From Myxococcales bacterium (GTDB lineage: Bacteria > Myxococcota_A > Polyangia > Polyangiales > Polyangiaceae), in the NCBI GenBank assembly GCA_013297655.1, contig JAAFHV010000053.1, positions 1-41,455 of the forward strand: DNA of 41,455 bases, read 5' to 3'. The position numbers were made by a program, and so were the translations under genes. Positions 4,312-24,430 of the stretch are shown in pieces. Each line of letters starts with the position of its first letter. Position 1 is the stretch's first letter. The notes beneath the pieces were generated by a model. That model was not told the origin of the DNA, searched no databases, and saw only the letters and a program-made list of their open reading frames with translations.

Positions 4312-6468
4312 ATGCGCGTGCTCGTCTTCTTCGGACTGCTCGGCCTCGTCGCCGCTTCGCAGGCCGCATGCAACGACAAACCGGGCCGAACGACCGCGGC
4401 CGACACCACGCGCGGGCAGGCCCTTTACAAGGATCTCTGCGCGAGCTGCCACGGCGCGAAGGGAGAGGGCGGGGTAGCCCCCGTGCTCCGCGACTGGACG
4501 CGCGGCGAGGAGACCCTCACGCGGATCATCGACGAGCGCATGCCGCAGGGAGCGCCCGAGAAGTGCGACGGCGATTGCCCGCCCTCGATCGCGCGCTACA
4601 TCCTCGACACGTTCAAGGGCGAGGTCGTGTGCGAATCGCCGAAGCCGCTCGCGCGAGGGCTTCGTCTTCTTTCGCGCCGCGAGCTCGAAGCGACGGTGAG
4701 TGACATCCTCGCCGGCACCACGGCCGCACCCGCACCCGCCGCCCCCTGCGGCACGGTGTCGTTCGTCTACGATCCGAAGGGGCGCGCCGTGACCCGCGTG
4801 CACGTGGCGGGCTCGTTCAACGGCTGGCCGGGGACGATCGCAGGCGGCGGTTACCCGCTGACGCGCGCTGGGAACGTGTTCGCGCTCGCGCAGCCCCTCC
4901 CGAACGGCTCCCACTCCTACAAGCTGGTGCTCGACGAGCGCGACTGGATCCCCGATCCGGACAATCCGCGCCGCGGCCCCGATGGCTTCGGCGGCGAGAA
5001 CAGCCTCGTCGACGTGAGCTGCCCAGCCTCTGGGACCGCGCCTCCGGAGAAGGGCGATGACGTCGTCGCCTCCGCGTTCGTGTCGTACCCGAAGGAGGCG
5101 CGTCCCGAGGCTTACCACTTCGACCAGCACGGCCCGTCGCGCGTGACCAGCGCTCCGCTCGCCGAGGCCGTGTTCCGCATCGCCGCCACCGTGAGCCAAG
5201 CGGCCGACGTCCCGAAGATGCTCGCGTGCGGCGCGAACGTCGACGAGGCGTGCACGAAGTCCTTCGTCACGCGCGTCGGCAAGCGCGTCTTCCGGCGGCC
5301 GCTCGAGGCAGACGAGCAAAAGCGCTACGAGGCCCTCGCGCTCGGCGGCGCGGATCGCACGAAGGGGGCGCGGCTCGCGCTCCGGGCGATGCTCACGTCT
5401 CCTGCGTTCCTCTACCGCACCGAGCTCGGGGAAAAGAAGGGCGACACCTTCGTGCTCACCCGCTGGGAGGTCGCGTCGGCGATGTCGTACGGGGTGACCG
5501 GATCGATGCCCGACGACGCGTTGATGGGCGCCGCCGAGCGTGGAGATCTCGCGACCCGCGAGGGCAGGGAGCGCGAGGCGCGGCGCCTCCTCGGGACGCC
5601 ACGCGCGCGCAAGCACCTCGGCGAGTTCGCGGAGCAGTGGCTCGGCGCCGACAAGGTCGCCGAGGTGGAGAAACAATCCGCCCTCTTCCCCGACGACTCC
5701 CCTGCGCTCCGCGCCGCCATGCGCGAAGAGACGCGGCGCTTCTTCACCCACGTCGTCTTCGACGGCTCGCACCGAACGGCCGAGCTGTTCCGTGCAAACT
5801 ACACCTTCGTCGACGCGACCCTCGCGAAGCACTACGGAATGGCGGCGCCGAAGACCCCCTTCGAGAAGCAGGCCTACCCCGATCGCGCGCGGGCGGGTCT
5901 CCTCGGGCACGCGAGCGTGCTCGCGACGACGGCGCACTCGGACCAGTCCTCTCCGATCCGGCGCGGGCTCTTCGTGCGAAGGAACCTGCTTTGCCAGGAG
6001 CTGCCCCCGCCCCCGCCGAACGTAGGGGGCGTGCCGAAGATCGATCCGAACGCGACGACACGGGAGCGCTTCGCGCAGCACACCGCGAACGCGTCCTGCG
6101 CGAGCTGCCATCGCCACATCGATCCGGTCGGCTTCGGGTTCGAGCGCTTCGACGCGATGGGGCGCCTCCGCGATAGCGAGAATGGGAAGCCCATCGACGC
6201 GAAGGGCGACATGACCGACGTCGAGGGCCTCGGAAAGGGGACGAGCGCCCCGTTCGCGGACCTCGCCTCCCTCGGAGAGACGCTCGCCGAGAGCCGAGCG
6301 GCGGAGGCGTGCGTCGCCAAGCAGCTCTACCGTTTCACGCGCGGCGTCCTCGAAGGCGACGCCTGCGTCACTCGCCCGTACGAGACCCGCTTCCGCGACC
6401 GCGGGGGCGACGTCCGCGAGCTCCTCGTCGATCTCGTCTCGTCCGAAGATTTCACGGTGCGCCAATGA
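4312..6468 (+). CDS. Cytochrome c / DUF1592-DUF1588-DUF1585 protein with an inserted CBM48-like domain
   Basis: 718 aa with a lipoprotein-like signal (Cys about residue 20). A haem motif CASCH lies at 43-47 with a possible Met ligand in ERMPQG. A DUF1587-like start (LRLLSRRELEATVSDIL) is then interrupted at about 145-240 by an early-set/CBM48-like module (VTRVHVAGSFNGWPG, then GSHSYKLVLDERDWIPDP), the fold used for glycan binding in branching enzymes and AMPK beta. DUF1595 (KRVFRRPLEADEQKRY), DUF1592 (about 370-495), DUF1588 (GLLGHASVLATTAHSDQSSP) and DUF1585 follow, with a second CASCH at about 595. The DUF1592-1588 set is a widespread uncharacterised envelope family, usually paired with DUF1552 as here. 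GGGAGGT precedes ATG 4312. The stop overlaps the first mini-ORF by ATGA. Biochemical role unknown; redox or glycan work at the envelope is my inference. Confidence 0.85.
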   Translation: MRVLVFFGLLGLVAASQAACNDKPGRTTAADTTRGQALYKDLCASCHGAKGEGGVAPVLRDWTRGEETLTRIIDERMPQGAPEKCDGDCPPSIARYILDTFKGEVVCESPKPLARGLRLLSRRELEATVSDILAGTTAAPAPAAPCGTVSFVYDPKGRAVTRVHVAGSFNGWPGTIAGGGYPLTRAGNVFALAQPLPNGSHSYKLVLDERDWIPDPDNPRRGPDGFGGENSLVDVSCPASGTAPPEKGDDVVASAFVSYPKEARPEAYHFDQHGPSRVTSAPLAEAVFRIAATVSQAADVPKMLACGANVDEACTKSFVTRVGKRVFRRPLEADEQKRYEALALGGADRTKGARLALRAMLTSPAFLYRTELGEKKGDTFVLTRWEVASAMSYGVTGSMPDDALMGAAERGDLATREGREREARRLLGTPRARKHLGEFAEQWLGADKVAEVEKQSALFPDDSPALRAAMREETRRFFTHVVFDGSHRTAELFRANYTFVDATLAKHYGMAAPKTPFEKQAYPDRARAGLLGHASVLATTAHSDQSSPIRRGLFVRRNLLCQELPPPPPNVGGVPKIDPNATTRERFAQHTANASCASCHRHIDPVGFGFERFDAMGRLRDSENGKPIDAKGDMTDVEGLGKGTSAPFADLASLGETLAESRAAEACVAKQLYRFTRGVLEGDACVTRPYETRFRDRGGDVRELLVDLVSSEDFTVRQ

Positions 6469-6533
6469 ACGAACAAGTGAGCCGTAGGCGAACGTCGTGC
6501 ATGAACAAGCAAGTGAGCGGGAGGACGGCATGA
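6465..6533 (+). CDS. 22-aa mini-ORF 1, coupled to the DUF1592 stop
   Basis: ATG overlaps the TGA of the DUF1592 gene (ATGA) and the TGA overlaps the next ATG. The peptide begins MNEQVSRRRTSC and ends SGRTA. Translation is possible by re-initiation, but no homologue is recognised and it may be only a by-product of the repeat. Confidence 0.3.
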   Translation: MNEQVSRRRTSCMNKQVSGRTA

Positions 6534-6598
6534 ACAAGCAAGTGAGCCGCAGGCGAACGTCTTGCCTATGCCAGCCGACCGAAGGGAGGACGGCATGA
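6530..6598 (+). CDS. 22-aa mini-ORF 2
   Basis: Starts after GGGAGGACGGC and overlaps its neighbours by ATGA on both sides. The peptide begins MNKQVSRRRTSC and ends TEGRTA. It is identical at the protein level to mini-ORF 3. Expression is unproven. Confidence 0.35.
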   Translation: MNKQVSRRRTSCLCQPTEGRTA

Positions 6599-6663
6599 AC
6601 AAGCAAGTGAGCCGCAGGCGAACGTCATGCCTATGCCAACCGACCGAAGGGAGGACGGCATGA
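6595..6663 (+). CDS. 22-aa mini-ORF 3, coupled to DUF1552
   Basis: Same peptide as mini-ORF 2; the two base differences (TCT/TCA and CAG/CAA) are both synonymous. Its TGA overlaps the DUF1552 start codon at 6660. Its N-terminus (MNKQVSRRR) resembles the DUF1552 N-terminus (MNVVSRRSLL), suggesting origin by duplication of that gene start. Confidence 0.35.
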   Translation: MNKQVSRRRTSCLCQPTEGRTA

Positions 6664-7988
6664 ACGTCGTATCTCGAAGGTCGCTCCTCCGTGGTCTGCT
6701 CGGCGCCGCGATGCTCTCGCCGTTCGCGGGCCTCTTGCGCACCGCCGCCGCCGACGGCGCGGGCGGCCCGGCCAAGCGCATCTTGTTCTTCTATTTCCCG
6801 GACGGCGTGCCGGATCCGGGCGGAGCGGCGGGCAAGTGGTTCCCGCAGGGGAGCGACACCAACGTGACGCTCTCCGAGAACCTCGCGCCCCTCGCGCGCT
6901 TCGCGAAGGACACGCTCTTCCTCCGCGGGCTCAGCATGGGCGCGACCGACGCGGGCAGCCACCCCGGCGGCGCGAAGAAGCTCCTCACGGCCGTCGACGG
7001 CGGTGGGGGCGAGTCGATCGATCGCTGGCTCGCGCGCAACGTGGGGAGCGCGTCTCCTGTGTCCCACCTCTACCTCGGCGCGATGGCGGCGCAGAACAAC
7101 GCGAGCGGCGACAAGTTCATCTCGTACCCCAGCGCGGGCACCACCGTCGCGCCAGAGGACGACCCTCGCGCCGCCTTCGCGCGCCTCTTCGGGAGCGCCA
7201 CCCCGACACCGGGAGCGAGCAGCGGCCCGGACCCCGACGACACGAGCGTGCTCGACACCGCCTTCGCCGATCTCGAGAGCATGCGCCGCCGCGCCGGAGA
7301 CGTCGAGAAGGCCAAGCTCGATCTGCACCTCGAGGCCCTCCGCGACGTCGAGAAGCGCGTGAAGGGCCTCGGCGCCGTGCCCACCGCGTCGTGCCAGAAC
7401 CCACGCATCGACACGGCCGGGATCACCAGTCAGACCCTCAACGAGGCGGCCACGTTTCCACAGATCCTGCGCGCCCAGAGCGACCTCATGGTCCAGGCGA
7501 TGGCGTGCGGGCTCACCCGCGTCGGTGTGCTCCAGTGCTCGCAGCACACGAGCGAGCTCATCATGAGTCGCTTTGCGGGCACTCCGCTTTATCGGCCATC
7601 GTTCGACATGCGGAGCCACCAGGCTTCGCATTACGGCGATCCGGGCGATTCGAAATTCGCCGACTACACCGCGCAGCGAACGTGGTTCGTCGCTCAAGCC
7701 GCCTACGTGCTCGAGCAGCTCGCGGCGCGGCCGGAGGGATCCGGCACGATGCTCGACCATAGCCTCGTCGTGATCTGTTCGGAGGTCTCCGACGGCAACA
7801 CCCACTCCCACGACAACATGCCTTTCGTCGTCTGCGGGAAGGGGGGAGGCGCCGTACGGACGGGCCGTATCCTCGACGCCGGTGGACGTCGTCACGGAGA
7901 GCTCTGGGTATCTCTCGCGCGCGCGATGGGTGCGAACCTCGGGAGCTTCGGCTCCGGCGGCGGGCCGCTCCCCGGCGTTCTCGTCTGA
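6660..7988 (+). CDS. DUF1552 protein with Tat signal
   Basis: 442 aa. The N-terminus MNVVSRRSLLRGLLGAAM is a twin-arginine signal, so export in a folded state is likely. The body matches the DUF1552 family: RILFFYFPDGVPDPGG near the start, an ARFAKDTLFLRGLSMG region, SHPGGAKKLLTA, then DLMVQAMACGLTRVGVLQCS and a late HSHDNMPFVVCGKGGG segment. Late histidine- and aspartate-rich motifs suggest an alkaline-phosphatase/sulfatase-like fold, but no catalytic role is established. It is encoded directly after the DUF1592 partner, through three coupled mini-ORFs. The start at 6660 follows GGGAGGA at 6649-6655; an in-frame ATG at 6627 inside the repeat is less likely. Confidence 0.87.
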   Translation: MNVVSRRSLLRGLLGAAMLSPFAGLLRTAAADGAGGPAKRILFFYFPDGVPDPGGAAGKWFPQGSDTNVTLSENLAPLARFAKDTLFLRGLSMGATDAGSHPGGAKKLLTAVDGGGGESIDRWLARNVGSASPVSHLYLGAMAAQNNASGDKFISYPSAGTTVAPEDDPRAAFARLFGSATPTPGASSGPDPDDTSVLDTAFADLESMRRRAGDVEKAKLDLHLEALRDVEKRVKGLGAVPTASCQNPRIDTAGITSQTLNEAATFPQILRAQSDLMVQAMACGLTRVGVLQCSQHTSELIMSRFAGTPLYRPSFDMRSHQASHYGDPGDSKFADYTAQRTWFVAQAAYVLEQLAARPEGSGTMLDHSLVVICSEVSDGNTHSHDNMPFVVCGKGGGAVRTGRILDAGGRRHGELWVSLARAMGANLGSFGSGGGPLPGVLV

Positions 7989-10642: not shown

Positions 10643-10983
10643 CCAAGTGATTTCAACGGCTTGGCGCCAACGTCGGTCGGGCGTCGCAATTGATTTCAAT
10701 GGGTTGGCGTCAACGTCGGTCGGACAACCCATCGCGTCGCAAGTGATTTCAATGGGTTGGCGTCAACGTCGGTCGGACAATGGGTTGGCGTCAACGTCGG
10801 TCGGACAACCCATCGCGTCGCAAGTGATTTCAATGGGTTGGCGTCAACGTCGGTCGGACAATCCGCCGTTGGACAACCCATCGCGTCGCAAGTGATTTCA
10901 ATGGGTTGGCGTCAACGTCGGTCGGACAACCCATCGCGTCGCAAGTGATTTCGATGGGTTGGCGTCAACGTCGGTCGGACAAT
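10643..10983. repeat. 53-bp tandem repeat array (about seven units)
   Basis: The unit runs from AAGTGATTTCAATGGGTTGG through CGTCAACGTCGGTCGGACAA to CCCATCGCGTCGC. Units start near 10643, 10688, 10740, 10780 (5'-truncated), 10822, 10890 and 10943. The first is diverged, one has a 15-bp insertion, and the rest are nearly identical. Most contain the inverted repeat ATGGGTTG ... CAACCCAT. Units abut with no unique spacers. The array fills most of the gap 10551-11044 between the Kazal gene and the convergent LuxR-type gene, where I see no gene. Confidence 0.9.
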
Positions 10984-17913: not shown

Positions 17914-18235
17914 GTGCGTTTCGTAGAGTCGCCAAGGGGGCCGTCCGCTCCGCGCGCGCGAGCGGCGAATCGATGGCAGCGCGGGTCCGGATCGGGCCCC
18001 GCCTACACCCTCCGCTAAATATGCATAGCGCACGGGTTGACTACGATCGCCGCAAAATATTCCTCTCTTCTTCACGCTCTCCAAAAATCGCACGCCACAA
18101 ATTGGTCCCATTCGGACCCCTCGTTCTACCGTTCCGGCAAGGGTAGGCCTCGTTCGGAGGTCGCCCCGCGGTGGCCCTCCGGCGAGGGTGCCCACGAGCC
18201 TGCGCGGAGCTCATTCCGTGTCGAGGGAGTCCCTG
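17914..18235. other. Spacer upstream of pilQ, with an AT-rich patch
   Basis: No gene is seen. An AT-rich stretch near 18015-18060 (CTAAATATGCATAG, then TTGACT at 18037-18042 and AAAATATTCC) may hold a weak promoter, but -35/-10 spacing is poor (about 15 bp to TATTCC). GAGGGAG at 18223-18229 is a good ribosome-binding site for ATG 18236. Confidence 0.3.
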
Positions 18236-18445
18236 ATGGATCGGTCGAAAACGCGAACCAACCGTGCCAACCGGACGAGCGAAGCTTGGACGGACGGCAC
18301 GATGGACCGTGGGGAGGGAAGTCCTAAGGACCGACCGACGCCGCGAACGTGGCCTACCAACCGGCCGAGCGCAGCTCGGACGTGTGGTCCGCTCGACCAT
18401 GGCGAAGAAGGTCCGAAGGACCGACCGACGCTACGAACGTCCCGA
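18236..18445 (+). repeat. Dispersed-repeat copies at the pilQ 5' end
   Basis: About two and a half units of roughly 85-90 bp begin at the ATG. Shared elements are GTGCCAACCGG at 18264 and a variant at 18349, hairpins GTCC-TAA-GGAC and GGTCC-GAA-GGACC, then GACCGACCGACG and CGCGAACGT, and the small stem CCGAGC-GCA-GCTCGG. The same elements, in reverse orientation, make up the array at 23998-24430. The copies are read through in the pilQ frame. Confidence 0.75.
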
Positions 18446-20755
18446 GCCTTCGGGAGTGGGATCCTAGGAGCGCTCTTCGTGAGCGTGCTCCTCACGTCGG
18501 GCGTCGCGCTCGGTGCAGGATCGGGCGCGCCCAACCACGTCCGTGACGTGTCGCTCGCTCCGCTCACGTCGACCGCGGGCCCGGGCTCGCAGATCGTCGT
18601 CACCGGCACCGAGGCCCCCGTCTTCGCGGTGCGCGTCGAGAACGGCGGCAAGCGCCTCGTCGTCGACTTGTCGAACGCCGACATCGCGGGCGCCAAGGGC
18701 GCGATCGTCGATCCGGTCGGCATGGTCGGTGGTGTGCTCACGCAGAGCTTCCGCACCGACGCGGGGGCGCTCACCCGCGTGACGGTGAACCTCTCGAAGC
18801 CCGCGGCGTACCGCGTCTTCGCGGAGGGCAACGACCTCAAAGTGCAGCTCGCGCCCGCCGCCGTCACCCAGCTCGCGACGCCCGCGCTCTTCGCCACCGC
18901 GGCGGAGCAGAAGGTGCAAGGCCCCGAGCTGGCCGACGTGCGCTTCGAGCAGAAGATGGTCGGCAAGAGCCGCTCGGATCGCGTCGTCATCCAGGCGAGC
19001 GAGGTCCCCGCCTACCAGCTCTCTACCGGCAACGACGGTCGCCTCCGCCTCTCGATCAAGAACGTGCGCGTGCCCGAGAAGCTCGCCCGCGCGCTCGACG
19101 TCGGAGCTTACGGCGGCGCGGTCCGCAAGGTCGCGACGTTCTACGACGCGCGCACGTCGTCTGCGGTCATCGAGATCGAGCGCTCCGGCGACGATCAAGG
19201 TGTGCTCTCGGTCGAGGGCAAGCAAATCGTGTGGAGCTTCGAGGCGAAGGACCTCGCCCGCGAGCGTGTGCAAGCGAAGGCTCCCCCGCGCGACGCCTCC
19301 AAGACGATCACCGTCGCGCGCGAGCGTGATCTTGCCGGCGAGAGCCCCAAGGTCGAGACGAGCATTCGTCAGCCCAACGACGGCCTCGACGTCGAGGTGT
19401 CCGGCGGCGGCGAGGCGGGCTTCACGTCCACCCTCAACGCGCAGGCGGGCCGCTACTCGGGTCGTCGCATCGACCTCGACCTCAAAGACGCCGACATCCA
19501 CAACATCCTCCGCTTGCTCGCGGACGTGGGTCGCGTGAACGTGGTCACCGCCGACGACGTCTCCGGTCAAGTCACGATCCGGATGCGCAACGTGCCGTGG
19601 GACCAGGCGCTCGACGTGGTGCTCCAGGCCAAGGGCCTCGGCATGGTGCGCACCGGCAACCTCATCCGCGTCGCCCCGCTCGCCGCGCTCCAGAAAGAGC
19701 GCGAGCTCCGCCTCGCCGCCGCGAAACAGGAGTACGAGCTCACTCCGCTCGAAACTCGCCTAATTCCGGTTAGTTACGCACGTGCAGACGAGCTCCAGGC
19801 GCGCGCCCGCGACCTCCTCTCGCCGCGCGGAACGATCGCCGTCGACGAGCGCACCAACGTGCTCATCGCGCGCGACATCTCCGGCAGCTTGGACAACATC
19901 GAGCAGCTCGTTCGTGCGCTCGACACGCAGACGCCGCAGGTGCTCATCGAGGCCCGCATCGTAGAGGCCACGAGCCGCTACCAGCGCGACATCGGTATCC
20001 AGTGGGGCGGCGACGCGACCTTCTCGGACGCGACCGGAAACCCGACCGGCATCGCGTTCCCCTCCAGCGTCGGCCTCGCCGGCGGTAACTACGACGGCCA
20101 ATCGCCGACCCAAGGTCTCTCGCCCACGCAGCCCACGGTCGCGACCCCGAACTACGTGGTCAACTTGCCCGCCGCGGTCGGCACCGGGTCCGGCGGTGCT
20201 CTCGGTCTGTCGCTCGGTTCGATCAACAACAACTTCAACCTCGGTGTCCGTCTCTCGGCGGCCGAGGCGAGCGGTCTCCTCCGCATCGTGTCGAGCCCGC
20301 GTATTCTCACGCTCGACAACCGCGAAGCGCGCATCAACCAAGGCACGCTCATCCCGTTCGCGCAGCTCTCCGCGCAGGGTGTTCAGACCACGTTCCAAGA
20401 GGCGAAGCTCCAGCTCCTCGTTCGTCCTCACGTCACCGCCGACGGCTCCGTCTCGATGCACGTGAAGATCAACAGGGACGAGCCCGACTTCAACCAGACC
20501 TCGGCCCGTGGTGACCCCACGATCCTCAAGCGCGAGGCGGAGACCGATCTGCTCGTGATGGATGGACACACCGCGGTCATCGGCGGCATCTTCACGCGCA
20601 ACACCGGTCGAAACCTCGATCAGGTCCCGTTCTTCGGAGACATTCCGATCCTCGGAGTTCTCTTCCAGCGCCGTCGCGCGAGCGACACGCGCAACGAGCT
20701 GGTGATCTTCCTCACCCCCCGTATCGTCAACCGCGCCGAAGCCCTAGGCCGCTGA
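18236..20755 (+). CDS. pilQ: Type IV pilus secretin PilQ
   Basis: About 839 aa from ATG 18236. Outer-membrane channel for the type IV pilus. After the signal-like hydrophobic stretch (AFGSGILGALFVSVLLTSGVALGAG) come one or two AMIN domains (about 90-350, peptidoglycan binding), then an STN/N0 domain (IDLDLKDADIHNILRLLADVGRVN), a secretin N1 domain (ARDLLSPRGTIAVDERTNVLI), and the secretin barrel (PQVLIEARIVEATSRYQRDIGIQWGGD to ELVIFLTPRIVNR). What is odd is the N-terminus: about 65 residues coded by the dispersed repeat precede the signal sequence, and no ATG lies between the repeat and the signal. ATG 18236 has the best ribosome-binding site (GAGGGAG, 6-nt spacing); GTG 18188 and ATG 18302 are alternatives. 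Confidence 0.93.
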   Translation: MDRSKTRTNRANRTSEAWTDGTMDRGEGSPKDRPTPRTWPTNRPSAARTCGPLDHGEEGPKDRPTLRTSRAFGSGILGALFVSVLLTSGVALGAGSGAPNHVRDVSLAPLTSTAGPGSQIVVTGTEAPVFAVRVENGGKRLVVDLSNADIAGAKGAIVDPVGMVGGVLTQSFRTDAGALTRVTVNLSKPAAYRVFAEGNDLKVQLAPAAVTQLATPALFATAAEQKVQGPELADVRFEQKMVGKSRSDRVVIQASEVPAYQLSTGNDGRLRLSIKNVRVPEKLARALDVGAYGGAVRKVATFYDARTSSAVIEIERSGDDQGVLSVEGKQIVWSFEAKDLARERVQAKAPPRDASKTITVARERDLAGESPKVETSIRQPNDGLDVEVSGGGEAGFTSTLNAQAGRYSGRRIDLDLKDADIHNILRLLADVGRVNVVTADDVSGQVTIRMRNVPWDQALDVVLQAKGLGMVRTGNLIRVAPLAALQKERELRLAAAKQEYELTPLETRLIPVSYARADELQARARDLLSPRGTIAVDERTNVLIARDISGSLDNIEQLVRALDTQTPQVLIEARIVEATSRYQRDIGIQWGGDATFSDATGNPTGIAFPSSVGLAGGNYDGQSPTQGLSPTQPTVATPNYVVNLPAAVGTGSGGALGLSLGSINNNFNLGVRLSAAEASGLLRIVSSPRILTLDNREARINQGTLIPFAQLSAQGVQTTFQEAKLQLLVRPHVTADGSVSMHVKINRDEPDFNQTSARGDPTILKREAETDLLVMDGHTAVIGGIFTRNTGRNLDQVPFFGDIPILGVLFQRRRASDTRNELVIFLTPRIVNRAEALGR

Positions 20756-20859
20756 GAAAACCGACGCTTTTCGCCAATACCTTCGCCCAGCCGTCGTCGG
20801 ACGTCCTCACGAACAGGAGTCGGTGGGATGGCTCCTTCGCTACGCTCGGTCGCCAAACG

Positions 20860-20891
20860 TATGCCCGGTCGCCTTCGGCTCCCTGGGCATA
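20860..20891 (+). terminator. Hairpin downstream of pilQ
   Basis: TATGCCC at 20860-20866 pairs with GGGCATA at 20885-20891, with an inner GCC-TTC-GGC. It lies about 105 bp after the pilQ stop. It may be a terminator or another copy of the dispersed repeat; there is no T-tract. Confidence 0.35.
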
Positions 20892-20946
20892 ACCGGGCGA
20901 TCCTCCTTGCCAGGGCTCGGTCTTGACGGAAATCATCCCGCCTGGT

Positions 20947-23997: not shown

Positions 23998-24430
23998 TCG
24001 GACCTCCCTCCCCATGGTCTATCGATGCCCCCGTACGAGCTGCGCTCGTCCGGTTGGCACGCTCGGTTCGCGGGTCGCTCGGTCCTTCGGACCTCCCTCC
24101 CCATGGTCTATCGTGCCCCCGTACGAGCTGCGCTCGTCCGGTTGGCACGCTCGGTTCGCGGGTCGCTCGGTCCTTCGGACCTCCCTCCCCATGGTCTATC
24201 GTGCCCCCGTACAAGCTGCGCTCGTCCGGTTGGCACGCTCGGTTCGCGGGTCGCTCGGTCCTTCGGACCTCCCTCCCTCCCCATGGTCCATCGTGCCCCC
24301 GTACGAGCTGCGCTCGTCCGGTTGGCACGCTCGGTTCGCGGGTCGCTCGGTCCTTCGGACCTCCCTCCCTCCCCATGGTCCATCGTGCCCCCGTACGAGC
24401 TGCGCTCGTCCGGTTGGCACGCTCGGTTCG
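23998..24430. repeat. Array of five 88-92 bp tandem repeats
   Basis: CCATGGTC recurs with its ATG at 24014, 24103, 24191, 24283 and 24375 (periods 89, 88, 92, 92). The two longer units carry an extra CCCT. Each unit contains two small stems, ACGAGC-TGC-GCTCGT (one copy has CAAGC instead) and GGTCC-TTC-GGACC. The last unit runs to within a few bases of the stop of the gene at 24434. Units are near identical and fill the gap 23953-24433 between convergent genes; I see no gene inside. Confidence 0.92.

Follow-up and report, generated by a model that had tools for sequence, protein, structure and literature searches.

Rickettsia palindromic elements (RPEs), as portrayed in the excerpts of the source used here, are short dispersed hairpin repeats that reside in protein genes and are compatible with their reading frames (PMC10969869). 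REP/BIME elements and MITEs are likewise short, dispersed, imperfect hairpins that carry no transposase gene of their own. Among engineered systems, the original bicistronic design (BCD) combines an internal Shine-Dalgarno (SD) sequence with a stop/start overlap. Such a design places a short first cistron ahead of the gene of interest (PMC5995908, in part). Termination-reinitiation at ATGA overlaps is established and involves an intragenic SD, and upstream premature stops abolish downstream translation in the pairs tested (PMC6728339, in part). Finally, the 52-nt tandem repeats of Bacillus are described, in passages of PMC8161180, as species-specific and of a constant unit size that is not a multiple of three.

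Here, we find that three mini-genes at a single operon junction belong to a 65-base repeat family spread through one bacterial genome. RPEs would seem its nearest known relatives in spirit, judging by analogy with their partial description; as described there, however, they are about 150 bp long and form in-frame fusions inside proteins, whereas our unit runs up to the start codon, giving a separate leader cistron. The engineered BCD appears, by the same kind of analogy and from a similarly partial source, to be the nearest functional likeness: in our family a short ORF ends on the host-start overlap at 30 of 50 sites and, at most of 33 host sites (not at C446), the SD for the second cistron lies inside the leader, but the unit is natural, repeated and dispersed. 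In the coupled overlapping pairs covered by the excerpts the upstream partner is an ordinary gene, while here it is a repeat-derived leader inserted in such an overlap. The term 'start codon' occurs 0 times in PMC8161180, and its passages give no gene-start placement for the Bacillus repeats; in a 2024 MITE review, a search for the terms 'start codon' and 'ribosome' likewise returned 0 mentions in the text available. Our literature search found no description of a repeat family placed at start codons.

The window analyzed here is a stretch of 41,455 nucleotides whose plus strand carries a gene for a protein with DUF1592, DUF1588, DUF1595, DUF1585 and cytochrome c domains (Pfam; 4312-6468) and, downstream, a DUF1552 (HXXSHH) gene (6660-7988) whose product begins MNVVSRRSLLRG. 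Three 69-nt ORFs with a period of 65 and mutual ATGA overlaps, first reported in the initial annotation, were re-found at 6465-6533, 6530-6598 and 6595-6663. They bridge the TGA that ends DUF1592 (6466-6468) and the ATG that begins DUF1552 (6660) with an ATGA overlap at both ends, and the 6465-6663 array has a Tandem Repeats Finder score of 246. Each of the corresponding units (6465-6529, 6530-6594 and 6595-6659, all on the plus strand) contains the SD sequence GGGAGGA: at 6519-6525 before mini-ORF 2, at 6584-6590 before mini-ORF 3 and at 6649-6655 before the DUF1552 ATG. Units 2 and 3 share the peptide MNKQVSRRRTSCLCQPTEGRTA and differ at two synonymous third-codon positions (TCT/TCA and CAG/CAA); they score 70-73 and 72 bits, respectively, against the family model, and the TGA of the third mini-ORF overlaps the DUF1552 ATG. 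Unit 1 encodes a different peptide, MNEQVSRRRTSCMNKQVSGRTA, and has been rearranged: its first 36 nt and its SD tail are kept, and an 18-nt second ATGAACAAGCAAGTGAGC precedes the SD, replacing the 5' arm of hairpin 2. It is the lowest-scoring of the three (36 bits), yet it too is 65 bp long and in phase.

Used as a DNA query, the array matched 28 places in its own genome (E<=1), and a sequence-only family profile built from 24 units gave at least 116 matches at E<=10 in this 9.9-Mb genome. We analyzed 62 units at 50 sites, comprising 61 units with E<=1e-3 plus C446 (E 0.01, from BLAST) and leaving out 54 weaker matches; since the profile search scored 150 of 14119 first-look candidates, the family's copy number is at least the figure given. 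Ten of the weaker-match loci (L117-L126) are unclassified and contributed to the background starts alone. Sites hold one to three units, and several arrays elsewhere in the genome are internally homogeneous, with two or three near-identical units. Given this dispersal, the proposed likeness of the mini-ORFs to the Tat-signal start of the DUF1552 protein proves superficial, and an origin from that start is not supported.

Among 59 genomes (own included) there is a match at E<=0.01 in nine, the other eight having one each; among 289 genomes of the class (own included), three others have one match each at E<=1e-4, and none of the 288 other class genomes has a second copy at that threshold. The single weak matches in relatives (L079, L081, L082 and L135) look like chance, with G279 a possible exception. 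In G279, one of the three genomes just mentioned and from another genus of the same family, two diverged tandem units (L136; G279:C140:5340-5455, minus strand) lie right before the start, MNIAITFRQMEATES, of a gene that we take from its sequence to be hpf-like, and the second unit's TGA overlaps the ATG. This tandem pair is a lead on the family outside its own genome, not proof. A scan of the genome collection for the hairpin-2 pattern gave 0 matches, and a looser two-hairpin pattern gave seven stretches in four named organisms or bins plus one more (five record sources). None of these stretches was seen to end at a start codon, and similar hairpin pairs are present in unrelated GC-rich genomes; thus the GA/GNA hairpin motif is widespread, while the repeat family is not.

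The copies sit mostly at gene starts. At 33 of the 50 analyzed sites a unit lies at a start codon in sense orientation, and at 30 an element ORF, starting at the unit's left start codon or just before it, ends in a TGA that overlaps the host start. To judge coding frames we trained a codon-usage caller on the window and the loci; its automatic classification found a coding ORF beginning near the element's right end at 31 of 50 sites, 29 of them with xTGA there, and C3, C32, C540 and C132 were added by inspection to reach 33. Besides these 30, five more sites lie near a start: one with an open ORF that starts further upstream (C118), one with a premature stop (C132), one whose GTG start is uncertain (C523), one in-frame fusion (C56) and C14. 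At C14:14685-14745 (L102), an in-phase unit is followed by a start and then only a 15-codon ORF (MKLSLKHLTHPPPKK), possibly a very small gene. Fifteen of the 50 sites are not at gene starts but in intergenic, antisense or degenerate N-terminal positions. A GGAG/GAGG-type motif lies a few nucleotides before the start at most of the 33 host sites (it is absent from C446), and only 11 of 21 left ATGs are preceded by a recognizable native SD. Gene callers may misplace starts at these sites, since the unit often leaves the host frame open.

Two comparisons put this placement in context. As a control we read 13 arrays, from 51 matches at E<=1e-3, of a second dispersed tandem family in this genome, and none of them ends at a start codon. 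Upstream ORFs with an overlapping TGA occur at 29 of the 33 element sites versus 10 of 24 background xTGA starts, which were picked by an SD rule rather than annotated; the stop/start distance allowed was 28-80 nt at element sites and 40-80 nt at background starts, and at 40-80 nt C446 also drops out. Such ORFs are therefore common in this GC-rich genome, and part of the leaders' openness comes free.

The initial annotation held that the arrangement keeps translational coupling intact, and this extends well beyond the locus. In addition to the 30 of 50 sites that end on a stop/start overlap, all ten length-changed arrays with their own left ATGA, none of them a multiple of 65 long, leave a remainder of 2 mod 3, the coupling phase (nine of nine without C14; p ~2e-5 if phase were free), so that within the family unit lengths do not shift the frame freely. 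The lengths concerned are 62 (C140), 62 per unit (C182), 59 (C223:96984), 122 in all (C298), 32 (C446), 194 (C535), 197 (C95) and 56 (C14), together with the second units of C3 (47) and C540 (56). The array that is clearly out of phase, C87 (66+66), does not sit at a gene start: its two 66-bp units (G000, L003; C87:9511-9647) run antisense near the N-terminal end of a lipoprotein-like frame of 142 codons, and a length of 66 keeps this frame open.

We consider it likely that the unit is a dispersed, non-autonomous hairpin repeat, some 65 bp long, that inserted at ATGA(A) start codons across this genome; in the window it would have entered the DUF1592/DUF1552 ATGA overlap and then grown to three units by duplication in place. 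Inside genes such insertion would usually be harmful; at a start codon it would be tolerated, because the repeat brings a complete coupled leader cistron, SD included. Purifying selection would thereby leave start codons as the harmless sites. Each unit opens with ATGA and closes with an SD that lies 5 nt before the following ATGA. Whether they come from the native start or the upstream gene, ribosomes would translate the 22-codon leader, terminate at its TGA and re-initiate at the overlapping ATG using the unit's SD, with leader translation probably opening hairpin 2 to free that SD. Each copy's tiny leader gene and ribosome landing site should in this way keep the host gene translated. The host gene would from then on depend on coupling to an open, in-phase leader, which would explain the retention of phase in diverged copies, and later local duplication would produce the arrays of two or three near-identical units.

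A more active role for the repeat can be envisaged in two forms. We suggest only tentatively, at less than even confidence, that it is a mobile translation-initiation cassette, in which a selfish hairpin repeat targets start codons with a complete coupled leader cistron (start, SD and ATGA). Somewhat more doubtful is a functional cassette under positive selection, kept and spread either because it provides a standard translation start that is proof against structure, as a natural bicistronic design, or because unit number tunes output. In favor of this are the retention of SD, overlap, phase and SD-containing hairpin, copy numbers of one to three depending on the site, and the divergent pair that another genus of the family carries where its hpf-like gene starts. 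The host genes, however, share no common function: their proteins are unrelated, with Pfam matches in 21 of the 30 tested (of the 33, two were too short, one of these cut by a contig end, and DUF1552 was done separately) to families that include FtsJ, acetate kinase, NAD-glycerol-3-phosphate dehydrogenase, FdhD, aldehyde dehydrogenases, GST, inositol monophosphatase and the B3/4 and B5 domains of tRNA synthetase (PheT-like). Moreover, 15 of the 50 sites are away from gene starts, and tolerance of insertion at start codons accounts for the pattern without any benefit to the host. Separately, we observe that in G000:C182 (L092, L107) the repeat occurs at two junctions about 1.5 kb apart, each preceding an aldehyde dehydrogenase gene.

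Each unit comprises two similar hairpins, each built of a stem, a GA/GA mismatch, a second stem and a GNA loop. In unit 2, hairpin 1 (6542-6558, plus strand) reads GT-[GA]-GCC-(GCA)-GGC-[GA]-AC and is supported by family covariation in helices 2 and 3, and hairpin 2 (6568-6596, plus strand) reads ATGCC..CC[GA]CC(GAA)GG[GA]GG..GGCAT, with covariation in helices 4 and 5 and a 3' arm that is the SD. Unit 3 repeats both on the plus strand, with hairpin 1 at 6607-6623 and, at 6633-6661, a hairpin 2 that holds the SD for DUF1552; both show covariation, and minimum-energy folding reproduces the latter only partly. The covariation score, computed over 61 distinct units, is 0.207 versus 0.089 +/- 0.009 for shuffled alignments (0/500), with 84.1% of cells paired versus 24-59% in slid versions, and the leading covarying pairs are CG:30/GC:21, CG:27/GC:17 and UA:20/GC:10/CG:4. 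Two of the five covariation measures are unremarkable (pairs changed on both sides, 42/500; further pair types, 95/500). Minimum-energy RNA folds reproduce hairpin 2 in about half of eight units (z -2.4 to +0.7), and the same hairpin cores also occur at non-start sites; on both counts their role may lie in movement, in translation or in both. Covarying hairpins, one of which holds the SD, might point to a cis-regulatory RNA, a riboswitch or attenuator leader common to a regulon. We regard this as very improbable: the hosts are unrelated, and the cores persist in antisense and intergenic copies. No Rfam covariance model matches the unit, and a known RNA was dropped on that account.

Nor does the encoded peptide seem to be what matters. 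Two window units specify one and the same peptide despite two synonymous differences, and the ORF is open at 30 sites; both would suit a family of tiny-protein genes whose product is the 22-residue peptide MNxxVSRRRTxCLCQPTEGRxA. In a parsimony analysis of 31 units and 212 changes, however, we detected no selection on the leader peptide: there were 57 synonymous and 139 non-synonymous changes versus 52.6 and 143.4 expected, spread over codon positions as 61/65/71, and changes were at neutral expectation in all three frames. With this substitution pattern, and with no Pfam match to the peptide, a peptide gene is very improbable and was dropped. Stop-creating changes numbered 2 versus 5.7 expected in the leader frame, 0 versus 3.6 in the host frame and 9 versus 6.8 in the third, a test that is weak by itself. 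Judged from sequence, a neutral peptide combined with few leader-frame stops suggests that translation through to the overlap is constrained, whereas the peptide sequence appears not to be.

Orthologous junctions in relatives lack the repeat. At relatives' DUF1552 loci the upstream ORF ends in a bare 4-nt GTGA/ATGA overlap with the DUF1552 start in five of nine cases (L023, L024, L027, L030 and L050), where its C-terminal residues resemble those of the window's DUF1592 protein, and none of the nine loci read has a repeat unit at the junction. By this comparison, which covers this one host locus, the window carries exactly 195 bp (3x65) between two copies of ATGA. The array was initially taken for a local duplication, and although near-identical units 2 and 3 and the homogeneous arrays elsewhere indicate that local duplication occurs, an ordinary minisatellite arising by slippage of the DUF1552 start is highly improbable as a full account, being refuted by the same unit at 50 sites beside unrelated genes and by the empty orthologous junctions, and survives only as a step in array growth. 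For another host protein, at C357, 39 genomes hold one distant match at E<=1e-30 besides the query.

The flanks also bear on the insertion target. ATGAA is found at 26 of 33 host starts, whereas 7 of 59 background starts have AA at +4/+5. The left flank at C182:4470 is ATGAAG, like the host start, and the inner unit has ATGAAC, a pattern that fits target duplication. ATGA stands on both sides of the window array and is also the unit's own end, which makes duplicated target and element end inseparable; ATGA is a candidate duplicated target, and an exact duplication beyond ATGA(A) is conjectural.

How the repeat moves can be compared with known mobile families. As in REP/RAYT systems, the unit is a dispersed, imperfect hairpin with covariation; in contrast to them, it is mostly not extragenic, since most copies abut or overlap start codons and 30 of 50 are coupled, and its own genome (97.6% complete) has no match at E<=1 to the Y1 (HUH) transposase family Y1_Tnp (PF01797), the one family searched. 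Mobilization by an IS605/RAYT enzyme was dropped for want of a Y1_Tnp in the genome. A repeat search for terminal inverted repeats of the MITE kind found 0 inverted pairs at 6200-7000, and start-codon placement sets the unit apart from both REP/BIME elements and MITEs. RPE-type in-frame fusion is not the rule here: the main class stops at a TGA overlapping the host start, and the look of an N-terminal fusion is limited to C56, the antisense C87 and a few degenerate copies.

The window holds further repeats. At 20828-20885 (minus strand), a diverged version of the unit's two-hairpin core sits inside a larger, palindrome-like element of about 120 bp with CCCTGG/CCAGGG-like ends (20800-20925, minus strand) that is not at a gene start. 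Similar elements lie near C525:54222, C92:456 and C528:5008, and this element could be a parent or cousin of the 65-bp unit. The second dispersed tandem family, of about 90 bp and with 51 matches in the genome, occupies 23998-24430 and 18267-18440, in the latter case within the N-terminal part of the ORF at 18188-20755; elsewhere it is mostly intergenic. At 10644-10982 there is an intergenic composite tandem array (CAATGGGTTGGCGTCAACGTCGGTCGGA and related units).

If the repeat is indeed a mobile translation-initiation cassette, its insertion would re-wire the initiation of a gene without breaking the gene, and dozens of unrelated genes would share one leader in a single lineage. Mobile repeats would then be able to settle at the start codon, a gene's most constrained site, by bringing along a coupled leader of their own. 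The family would offer a natural counterpart to engineered bicistronic leaders, replicated over some 30 host genes, and with it one could test both how a repeat locates start codons and whether translation of a short leader sets the output of its host gene.
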